Part shown: positions 31,145-33,964 of the stretch, piece by piece | Layout of the letters: every line of letters begins with the position of its first letter | Position numbering within the stretch: position 1 is the stretch's first letter | DNA from: Pirellula sp. SH-Sr6A | Lineage (GTDB): Bacteria; Planctomycetota; Planctomycetia; Pirellulales; Pirellulaceae | DNA: 64,000 nt | Direction of reading: 5' to 3' | Assembly (NCBI RefSeq): GCF_001610875.1 | Contig: NZ_CP011272.1 | Coordinates: 1,779,988 to 1,843,987 of the forward strand | The notes under the pieces: generated by a model | The model's database searches: none | What the model was told of the DNA's origin: nothing | Seen by the model: only the letters and a program-made list of their open reading frames with translations | Made by a program: the position numbers and the translations under genes

Positions 31145-31513
31145 ATGCGAATCCTATACTTGATACTTTCCATCTTGGGGTTCATTGCACCCATGGTTTG
31201 TTTCGGCGTTCACTTCGGCTCGCGTGGCGAAACCGCTTGGTCCGAATTCTTTGCGGCACCCTATGCCACATGGGTGATTTCGGGTTTCTCCTGGGATCTG
31301 ATGGTAACCGCTACTGCAGCGACACTTTGGATGCACCAAGAATCGAAGCGACTTCGAATGAAGGGCTTCATCTGGCACTTGCTACTGATCTTCGCAGTGG
31401 GGGTCTGTTTTTCCCTCCCCACCTTTCTATACCGCCGCGAAAAGCACTTGCGACACCTCCCCAACGTGCACCTCCCCAAGGTGGTTGCCCCCAATCTCCC
31501 CTCCCCCAATTAG
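31145..31513 (+). CDS. DUF2834-like membrane protein with repeat-derived C-terminus
   Basis: A 122-residue small membrane protein with three TM helices (about 3-22, 46-68 and 78-97), matching the DUF2834 pattern (LILSILGFIAPMVCFGVHFG; APYATWVISGFSWDL). Function unknown. ATG 31145 chosen; an upstream TTG at 31112 is weaker. The last ~19 residues (HLPNVHLPKVVAPNLPSPN) are encoded by a degenerate repeat copy (31478-31495), and its TAG stop (31511-31513) is the first three bases of the next repeat unit. The tail thus looks altered by repeat insertion. Confidence 0.8.
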   Translation: MRILYLILSILGFIAPMVCFGVHFGSRGETAWSEFFAAPYATWVISGFSWDLMVTATAATLWMHQESKRLRMKGFIWHLLLIFAVGVCFSLPTFLYRREKHLRHLPNVHLPKVVAPNLPSPN

Positions 31514-31623
31514 GTGGGTGCCCCTTATCAATTAGGTGGGTGCCTTCTATTCATATACCAACTCATAAGGTGGGTGCCCCCTATTCCCCGGCCTTGGTTA
31601 GATGGGTGCCCCAATCTCCGATC

Positions 31624-31676
31624 GCGACCTTGCGCCGTCGCGCGAAACCTCCCTCCAAAAGGTGGGTGCCTGCTAT
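31624..31676 (+). repeat. Composite repeat unit 1 (most diverged)
   Basis: A degenerate GCGTCTTGGCGCC-type element directly followed by a GGTGGGTGCC unit. It differs from the others (GCGACCTTGCGCC, then CGCGAAACCTCC), indicating drift. Confidence 0.75.
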
Positions 31677-31788
31677 CAAAAAGGTGGGTGCCTCTTATTC
31701 TCCTCCTGGTTTCAACAAGTTTTCAATACGTGGGCGCCACCCAACGCTGGTGATGATTTATAAAAAGGTGGGTGCCTCTTATTTCCCT

Positions 31789-31850
31789 CTCTCGTTAGGT
31801 GGGTGCCCCGAATCCCCGCTCTCTCGTTAGGTGGGTGCCCCGAATCCCCG
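31789..31850 (+). repeat. Tandem duplication inside the left array
   Basis: A 30-bp segment (CTCTCGTTAGGTGGGTGCCC and the following 10 bases) occurs at 31789-31818 and 31821-31850, identical and with 32-bp period. It shows recent local duplication of a repeat unit. Confidence 0.9.
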
Positions 31851-31880
31851 ATTACCCCGAATCCCCGCCCCTCCCCTTTT

Positions 31881-31940
31881 GCGTCTTGGCGCCTTCGCGA
31901 GAAACCTCCCTCCCCCCCATTAGGTGGGTGCCTTCTATTT
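31881..31940 (+). repeat. Composite repeat unit 2
   Basis: GCGTCTTGGCGCCTTCGCGA at 31881 leads through GAAACCTCC and a C-run into a TAGGTGGGTGCCTTC unit, about 59 bp in all. Same layout as units 3-5 on the far side of the transposase. Confidence 0.88.
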
Positions 31941-32037
31941 ACCCCTCTCCAAAAAGTTCACCTATTTGGTTGCATCCCTTCCCTCAATCCCATAAGGTGA
32001 TGGGATCTACACCCCGAACTTCTTGGAGAGATCCACC

Positions 32038-33195
32038 ATGTCCAGCACGCTCCGCTGTGAGCAGTTCGTCAGCGACGAAATCTGCCTTGTTCATTGCTAC
32101 CATCGCTGTGTCCGTCGCGCCTTCCTCACAGGCATCGATGAGCTCACCCAGAAAGACTACACCCACCGCAGAGAATGGATTCGCCAGCGCCTGGAGTCCC
32201 TGGCCTCTGTCTTCGGTATCGACGTTCTCCAATATGCCGTCCTATCCAATCACCTCCATGTCATCCTCCGCAATCGCCCCGATGTCGTGAAGACTTGGTC
32301 CGACGTAGAAGTCGCCACCCGCTGGCTAAGACTCTTTCCAGGCACCCGAATCCTCGATGTCTTGGCCGAGCCCAACGAGGAGGATGTCCGAAGCGCTGTA
32401 GCCAATCCCGAGAAGATCCAAGAGTATCGCAGCCGACTCTCCGATATCTCTTGGTTCATGCGTTCTCTCGCAGAAGTCATCGCCAGGCGAGCCAATGCAG
32501 AAGATGAATGCAGTGGCTGCTTCTGGGATGGCCGATTCAAAGCGAAGCGGCTTCTCGATGAAGCGGGTTTGCTGGCCTGCGCCATGTATGTGGATCTCAA
32601 TGTCTTGCGCGCGAACCTGGCCGCAACAATCGAACTCTCGATGCACACGTCGGTGTTTGATCGAATCGAGGCTGCCAAGGGAGCGATGATCGAATCCTCG
32701 GCTCTGGATCGTATTCCCTTGTCCCGGGAGGAATCGATCGCGAGGAGGACCAAGATGACGCTCGAGGAGCAGAAGAAGGCTCGTAAGCAGACTGGCCCCC
32801 GTCCACTGGTCCCCCGAGACGCCTGGTTGGCCCCTTTGACGCTCGACCCCGGAGTGGACGCGTTTGATCCGCAGGCCAGCACCAATGGTCTGCGCGCCAG
32901 CAACCGAGGGTTCTTGACGATGAACCTGGAGGACTATGTGAAGTTGTTGCAATGGACTGCTAAGCAGAAGGATCATCCGCCAGGGAGCGTGTGTCGGGTT
33001 CCTGAATCCTTGGAGCCCTTGTTTACCGGCTTGGGAGTGGAACCGAGCATGTGGTGCGACTTGGTGTGGAACTACACGAAGTACTTTGGGACAAGCCGTT
33101 GTAGTGGGAATCCCAAGGCGATGATCGCCGACGCGGAGCGGACCCACAAACGCTGGAGTCGCGGCCAGCGCCAAGCTGCCGCTTGCTTCGCCTAG
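32038..33195 (+). mobile_element. Y1 (HUH) transposase, REP-associated (RAYT) type
   Basis: A 385-residue tyrosine-1 HUH transposase. The metal-binding HUH motif is NHLHVIL (His 72, His 74). GCFWDGRFKAK and CAMYVDLNVLRANL follow, with Tyr 184 as the likely catalytic tyrosine. Start at ATG 32038 is backed by a GGAGAG Shine-Dalgarno 7 nt upstream. The long C-terminal region (about 215-385) is planctomycete-like and lacks known domains. Unlike IS200/IS605 elements no TnpB accompanies it and no obvious LE/RE hairpins are adjacent. Instead it is bracketed by same-orientation short repeats, so it resembles the domesticated RAYT transposases that act on REP sequences. Whether it is active is unknown. 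Confidence 0.85.
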
Positions 33196-33365
33196 CGGGC
33201 AGCGCTTCGCGGCAACTGGCCAGTAGCAAGGAGCAAGGAGCAAGTGGCTCCGCTAGCTCCGGTTCCCCACCTTGGAGCCTGAGCCAGAACCCCGCTCTCC
33301 AGTCTCCCGCTCTTCGCCCTCCTGCATTCTCGGGTCCGGCTCGCCGCTGCGCCCATCCGAGCCCA
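33196..33365. other. Spacer between transposase and right repeat array
   Basis: About 170 bp directly after the transposase stop. It begins with a short direct duplication AGCAAGGAGCAAGGAGCAAG and continues as C-rich, low-complexity sequence. No gene or repeat unit is seen. Confidence 0.5.
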
Positions 33366-33711
33366 ATCCCTCCGAATTCCAGCCCCCCAGGCCAATCCCG
33401 CCCCCACTTCCACCCCACCCTCCGTCCCAGCCCCCTCCAAAAGATGGGTGCCTACTATCAAAAGGTGGGTGCCTGCTATTGGGAATGCTTGCGTCTTTGC
33501 GCCGTTGCGAGAAAACTCCTCCCCCCAACAAGGTGGGTGCCTGCTATTTGAGGAACGATTGAATAGATGGGTGCCCTTAATTGAGAGCGCCATCCCTCCG
33601 AATTCCAGCCCCCCAGGCCAATTCCGCCCCCAATTCCCCCCAACCTCCGTCCCCACCCCCTCCAAACGATGGGTGCCTGCTATCAAAAGGTGGGTGCCTA
33701 CTATCGGGAAT
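33366..33711 (+). repeat. Approx. 120-bp direct duplication in the right array
   Basis: 33366-33485 and 33592-33711 are copies of one segment: a 31-bp identical start (ATCCCTCCGAATTCCAGCCC and on), a C-rich middle, then two adjacent GGTGGGTGCC units each. The copies differ by a few substitutions and small indels. Confidence 0.88.
33491..33549 (+). repeat. Composite repeat unit 3
   Basis: GCGTCTTTGCGCCGTTGCGA, then GAAAACTCC, a C-run, and an AAGGTGGGTGCCTGC unit. Confidence 0.87.
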
Positions 33712-33765
33712 TGGGAATGATCGGGGATGATTTGAATAGGTGGGTGCCTGCTATTGGGAATTTCT

Positions 33766-33824
33766 GCGTCTTGGCGCCTTCGCGAGAAAACTCTTCCCCC
33801 CAAAAAGGTGGGTGCCTGCTATTT
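33766..33824 (+). repeat. Composite repeat unit 4
   Basis: GCGTCTTGGCGCCTTCGCGA, then GAAAACTCTT, a C-run, and an AAGGTGGGTGCCTGC unit. The first 20 bases are identical to unit 2 on the other side of the transposase. Confidence 0.9.
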
Positions 33825-33906
33825 GAGGAACGATTGCGCCGCAATGAGTGGGTGCCTCGGATTTGGTGATGGGTGGGTGCCTCGGATTTGGTGATCGCGT
33901 TTCGTT

Positions 33907-33964
33907 GCGTCTTGGCGCCTTTGCGAGAAAACTCCCGCCCCCCAAAAGGTGGGTGCCCTTAATT
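33907..33964 (+). repeat. Composite repeat unit 5
   Basis: GCGTCTTGGCGCCTTTGCGA, then GAAAACTCCC, a C-run, and an AAGGTGGGTGCCCTT unit that marks the end of the right array. Confidence 0.9.

Follow-up and report, generated by a model that had tools for sequence, protein, structure and literature searches.

Among the TnpAY1 transposases, class 2 genes are low in copy number with the exception of subclass 2.3, for which the survey by Quentin et al. (2018, PMC6006769) reports no REP-like sequences. A second described arrangement, the TIRYT or TIRtron, consists of a RAYT-like gene within terminal inverted repeats, with some of these clustered (Di Nocera et al. 2013, PMC3733652). R. baltica is described there as having numerous genes for tyrosine transposases, together with flanking repeats.

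The locus studied here lies in a 64-kb window (the whole stretch of DNA analysed, 64,000 nucleotides) of a Pirellulaceae genome that consists of a single contig of 6,534,136 bp. A transposase gene, tnpA, is flanked on both sides by arrays of a short repeat that we call R, with the following features in window coordinates:

31479 to 31941, plus strand: upstream array of 10 R cores (RRTGGGTGCC) and 1 degenerate copy at 31479
31881 to 33925, plus strand: second interspersed motif, GCGTCTTGGCGCCTT-like, starting at 31881, 33491, 33766 and 33907, among the R copies
31919 to 31941, plus strand: innermost upstream R, with its core at 31923-31932, at -100 from the tnpA start
31951 to 31969, minus strand: possible relic of an ancestral inverted left end, AAAAAGTTCACCTATTTGG, with CACCTATT at 31959-31966
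32023 to 33195, plus strand: tnpA, HUH/Y1 transposase, RAYT-like, 390 aa, TTG start
33196 to 33442, plus strand: the unit's 3' untranslated region, parts of which reappear in downstream arrays
33443 to 33957, plus strand: downstream array of 11 R cores

Exact RRTGGGTGCC cores number 21 on the plus strand of the window and 0 on the minus strand; they span 31513-33957, 10 upstream and 11 downstream of tnpA. With up to one mismatch, AGGTGGGTGCC gave 20 matches, all on the plus strand and all inside 31479-33957, whereas 100 dinucleotide shuffles of the window averaged 0.64 and never exceeded 3. The original prediction had placed about 23 plus-strand copies on both sides of a lone transposase and nowhere else in the window; the exact cores and the degenerate copy at 31479 make 22, their strand and two-sided placement agree with that description, no copy lies outside 31479-33957, and the predicted consensus is close to the logo of 150 copies from 11 loci, A[AT][AT]A-RRTGGGTGCC-[TC]NNTAT[TC]. 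The GCGTCTTGGCGCCTT-like motif also recurs between R copies across the 11 tnpA loci of the genome (33 forward, 0 reverse), and was found 3 times in 800 kb of sampled genome, a sample that overlaps one of these loci.

The window protein carries NHLH, YVDLNV and FWDGRF motifs. Across 22 aligned proteins the HUH motif reads NH[LM]H with N76, H77 and H79 invariant, Tyr189 of YVDLN is kept in 21, and the relatives mostly have YVDLNP and FWEGRF. A Pfam search with the window protein returned zero matches, Y1_Tnp included; that profile matches 16 of the 22 aligned proteins weakly (best E 0.0027). The AlphaFold model of the window protein is poor (pLDDT 55), and with this poor model as query the top PDB folds were ISDra2, a Sulfolobus transposase and IS608 TnpA, at E values of at least 0.069.

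A canonical RAYT/REP system (REPtron), in which a domesticated transposase mobilises palindromic REPs, would fit the multicopy cognate repeats around the gene and the match of NF047646 (REP_Tyr_transpos) to all 22 aligned proteins (best E 4.5e-10). The window protein itself, however, scores only 28.1 bits against this profile (E 1.5e-6) and does not reach the 80-bit cut-off. Palindromy is likewise wanting: five single-repeat foldings of R gave z-scores of -0.40 to +0.64 relative to shuffles, and no clear pairing covariation was found in the flank columns of 150 copies. Columns -2 and 13 do have the highest mutual information (0.26 bits) and are complementary in 73% of copies, as a hairpin would have it, but column pairs that are rarely complementary are linked nearly as strongly (0.24). 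Neither folding nor covariation thus supports the palindromic REP reading, and R is, as had been proposed, not evidently one of the usual palindromic REPs. Among the element ends of two relatives, folding beat the shuffles upstream at L031 (z -3.25), did not clearly do so downstream of it (z -1.21), and gave no excess at an L048 end (z 0.47). Since tnpA is also present in 11 near-identical copies, against the low copy number of class 2 genes other than subclass 2.3 in PMC6006769, we regard a REPtron as improbable here.

While tnpA is the only such transposase in the window, it is not alone in the genome, where its 11 copies are 98-100% identical at the amino acid level and each has R repeats on both sides. 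Genome-wide, the 11-base R core occurs 88 times on the plus strand and 54 times on the minus strand (142 in all), and the reversed pattern, used as control, 2 times on each. All 11 copies have in common a stretch that begins at the -100 R and extends at least about 210 bp beyond the stop codon. The innermost upstream R is at -100 in every copy and whole in 8; in L106, L111 and L112 it is cut by another IS, with GTGGGTGCC kept. The first downstream R core lies +237 to +278 past the stop codon in all 11. Beyond this unit the outer arrays differ among the copies and are mosaics; three loci (L105, L106 and L112) have 2 full upstream R cores each within reach, with at least one upstream core each beyond inserted ISs. 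Further R arrays, each running in one direction, stand at places to which the genome-wide search for tnpA assigned no gene: L306 with 14 cores, L309 with 17, L120 with 4, L121 with 8 and L122 with 3. At L113, a short tandem tract lies ~2.4-2.8 kb upstream of tnpA, and its translation repeats FNA.

We then compared the locus with its relatives in 241 Pirellulaceae genomes. Relatives of tnpA are present in 152 of these, the window genome included and often with several per genome; those of the other 151 are at most 57% identical among the matches listed. The exact unit GGTGGGTGCCYNCTATT occurs 58 times in the window genome and was not found in the other 240 family genomes searched, many of them incomplete, and R was not found in genomes lacking this transposase. 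The expected association of repeat and transposase is thus borne out, by these genomes and by the repeats on both sides of all 11 copies.

Closer inspection of 54 relative loci (48-57% amino acid identity) revealed that the commonest 7-mers upstream of the gene spell GGTGCCACCCACC and the commonest downstream spell GGTGGGTGGCACC, its reverse complement. Counting GGTGGGTGGCACC with up to two mismatches at 52 of the 54 loci (two were dropped, their gene starting at a contig end) gave 9 forward and 67 reverse copies upstream and 50 forward and 3 reverse copies downstream, with never more than two forward copies upstream. Seven of the 52 have no match to the end motif on either side, and several L032-like loci carry a near-palindromic variant of the end whose direction is ambiguous. 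Several others have two to four copies on one side, so multiplied ends are not unique to the window genome. GGTGGGTGGCACC is present in 97 of the 241 genomes and not in the window genome; relatives of tnpA are found in 52 of the 54 genomes with at least three GGTGGGTGGCACC and in 100 of the remaining 187, the two motif-rich genomes without a match (G008 and G222) both being fragmented, and the reversed-pattern control itself has 3 matches in each of two genomes and 4 in a third. For the 11 copies in the window genome, where the motif counted (GGTGGGTGCC, up to one mismatch) was shorter and the upstream search range longer than for the 52 relatives, there are 86 forward and 3 reverse copies upstream and 106 forward and 0 reverse copies downstream. 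The upstream R copies therefore point opposite to the relatives' upstream end motif.

The motif extends beyond the family. A tblastn search of a plasmid collection gave relatives in 13 records, from Pseudoalteromonas, Shewanella, Saccharobesus, Catenovulum, Photobacterium, Vibrio and Aeromonas; these 13 gammaproteobacterial loci, one of them a 119-codon fragment, have CACCCA at -140 to -40 in 9 and TGGGTG at +120 to +320 in 7, with shuffle means of 0.49 and 0.77, respectively, and 0 of 500 shuffles reaching the observed counts. The closest contig match, a contig-edge fragment from 'Pirellula sp. Prado168' (80% over 59 aa), is followed, on the downstream side seen, by three R-like copies in a row on the gene's strand, as judged by eye. 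Viral contigs gave 18 pattern matches, none of them a relative, and the accessible portion of the open-access literature searched held no previous report of this end motif. In sequence, the window repeat resembles the inverted ends of a Y1 element family that is widespread, and it probably goes back to that end motif. This resemblance tells against the suggestion that R represents a new class of transposase-driven repeat. The flanking arrays are shared by all 10 paralogous loci in the window genome, while short inverted ends prevail at related loci of other genomes.

A trace of the inverted arrangement may persist beside the gene. The minus-strand sequence at 31951-31969 has a counterpart in all 11 copies, within about 10 bp of the position of GGTGCCACCCACCTATTG in the relatives, and may be what is left of an inverted left end in the ancestor, the homology resting on 8 shared bases. 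A second transposase family (family 2; that of the window is family 1) is present in the same genome in 6 copies of 432 aa, with 39% identity to the window transposase. Its repeat, GTGAGTGTCCCC, occurs in 3, 20, 33, 25, 0 and 13 copies upstream and 3 to 6 downstream, all in the direction of the gene with no reverse one on either side. Among 29 relatives of family 2 (43-68%), GTGTCCC was found in 5 forward and 36 reverse copies upstream and in 44 forward and 3 reverse copies downstream; reverse copies stand upstream in 15 of the 29 and forward copies downstream in 13, and the closest relative, L229, has both. Exceptions are L248, with one forward copy per side, and several loci with none. The comparison shows an inverted-to-direct change of repeats in two transposase families of one genome.

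Using one unit as query, we found same-direction pieces of the element in the downstream arrays of 5 of the 11 family-1 loci, the window copy among them. At L111 the intact gene is followed by a left-end piece of 34 bp (97%) and then a 3' piece of 218 bp (90%), an arrangement resembling a tandem second unit with an internal deletion. Further 3' pieces, at about 85%, are 165 bp long at L105, 115 bp each at L103 and L107, and 66 bp at L109. A right-end module stands upstream of tnpA at 6 of the 11 loci (L103, L107, L108, L109, L110 and L113), these modules being only 31-37 bp long and mostly R itself. No inverted pieces were present among the listed matches of the unit query in family-1 loci, and the family-2 arrays yielded no element pieces beyond one 28-bp repeat match. 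Because same-direction element pieces occur in some arrays, the family-1 evidence, on which the stacking model chiefly depends, suggests that the element stacks head-to-tail at its own end motif.

The explanation that we consider somewhat better than an even bet is an IS-like element with R as its end motif that inserts head-to-tail at R, followed by gene loss and reshuffling. Such an element, active or recently active, would carry a single Y1 (HUH) transposase gene, with the end motif R repeated on either side of it. TnpA would probably recognise R in single-stranded DNA, cut it and excise the stretch between the ends, and the excised unit would be pasted, in the same orientation, beside an R already present. 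The end motif is mostly inverted at the two ends of relatives; here, the left end in that orientation has apparently decayed. Right-end-like R on both sides would then result from units inserted head-to-tail at R; older units may have lost their genes, with tandem duplication and R-by-R recombination reshuffling what remained. This order of events is inferred, as are self-targeting, the single-stranded pathway and the binding and cutting of R by TnpA. Insertion beside R was not itself seen because no empty site was available: at none of the 23 relative loci checked did the window's left neighbours stand beside the mutS-like gene.

Same-strand arrays can also arise by tandem duplication and ordinary recombination, and it is possible, though on balance doubtful, that R is an end motif whose arrays grew passively, by replication slippage and unequal recombination with no internal action of TnpA. 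The near-perfect 19-bp tandems of the family-2 upstream arrays have this character, as do the window's own tandem blocks (32, 21 and 25 bp) and the solo array L121, whose 8 R fall into four modules about 260 bp apart. The irregular R spacings of family 1 do not. Moreover, slippage alone cannot convert an inverted upstream end to a direct one, nor can it account for L111, where an intact gene is followed by a left-end piece and another 3' piece.

The R arrays also harbour another insertion sequence, with a DDE_Tnp_1 transposase (PF01609) and inverted ends GAATGGCACTGTAATC. Seven near-identical copies, 3 of them interrupted, are all inside R arrays (in contig positions: L103 at 321133; L105 at 763464/766193; L106 at 1152717/1154427; L111 at 4212875; L112 at 4401661/4404056; L306 at 4566581; L113 at 6156080), and one 41% relative lies at 130201. 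GTGGGTGCCYY abuts the right junction in all 7, as it does the left junction in the 6 that a script could match, and this IS appears to target the R repeat. Its placement parallels that of ISPpu9, which is found in REPs according to PMC8450116.

We also weighed a role of the arrays in host biology, with tnpA as a passenger; they could, for instance, be bound by a protein that organises the chromosome or acts in regulation. Same-strand arrays would suit such a role, as would the finding that, with dnaA at 631 bp, 10 of the 11 family-1 genes follow one strand rule per chromosome half. This rule was noticed after the fact (Fisher p 0.015), and as neither the motif copies nor the related genomes form independent samples, p-values for it and for the motif tests overstate the case. 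Local GC skew (20 kb on each side) did not confirm it, being negative on the R strand at 7 of 11 family-1 and 2 of 6 family-2 loci, and long-ORF strand bias was uninformative for the replication strand. A mechanism that targets one strand of the replication fork would also predict a strand bias, and for it too the chromosome-half rule (10 of 11) and local GC skew (7 of 11) do not agree. Sampled in 40 stretches of 20 kb, GC skew stays mostly below zero as far as about 3.3 Mb; beyond that point it reverses sign several times, as would be seen after inversions. Seven of the 11 tnpA loci have other ISs in their repeats, the exact unit is confined to one of 241 genomes, and R occurs at only about 20 places among the matches listed; these points likewise argue against a host function, which we consider very unlikely.

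Beyond the preferred reading of an IS-like element stacking at R, we put forward, tentatively and as a proposal that may well fail, that a Y1 family has come to move with direct ends and to insert at its own end motif, which would pile units up head-to-tail in one orientation as arrays, and that two families switched in parallel. If true, a parallel switch would point to a host factor or a replication feature driving it; the change is seen with two different repeat sequences in the one genome. Within a single family, relatives with inverted ends can be set beside the direct arrays found here and their 11 near-identical open reading frames, a comparison that bears on the origin of transposase-linked repeat families such as REPs.

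Set against the known systems, the element is a variant of a known Y1 element kind rather than a palindromic REP system. The window protein resembles TnpAY1 subclass 2.3, by sequence likeness rather than formal placement. Shared with that subclass are a long Y1 protein with a C-terminal extension, and several copies per genome (here 390 aa and 11), and the plasmid-collection relatives overlap the Alteromonadales, where PMC6006769 puts subclass 2.3. At the YVDLNP and WE motifs of the subclass, relatives mostly read YVDLNP and FWEGRF, the window protein YVDLNV and FWDGRF. The survey and its table differ from our locus in giving NHYH (the window protein has NHLH, the 21 relatives NHLH or NHMH), a median length of 325 aa against 390 here, a mean identity of 74.8% against 98-100% among the copies here, and no REP-like sequences, where we find an inverted end motif in relatives and direct arrays in this genome; for subclass-2.3-like proteins this end motif offers candidate substrates. 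Compared with the TIRYT or TIRtron, the family-2 GGGGACAC fits the GGGGWSAS motif of PMC3733652, but both families here have direct repeats in arrays, the terminal inverted repeats being mostly those of relatives elsewhere. RAYT/REP systems (REPtron, E. coli TnpAREP) share the HUH/Y1 motifs and a repeat of its own for each transposase family; R, however, is not clearly palindromic and has no GTAG foot followed by a hairpin, only an internal GTGG without a stem after it, and the transposase is multicopy and near-identical. As for IS200/IS605 elements (IS608, ISDra2), HUH motifs are present, but Y1_Tnp matches are weak in relatives and absent for the window protein; no hairpin was seen at R, and the protein is about 2.5 times the IS200 median of 152 aa given in PMC6006769.
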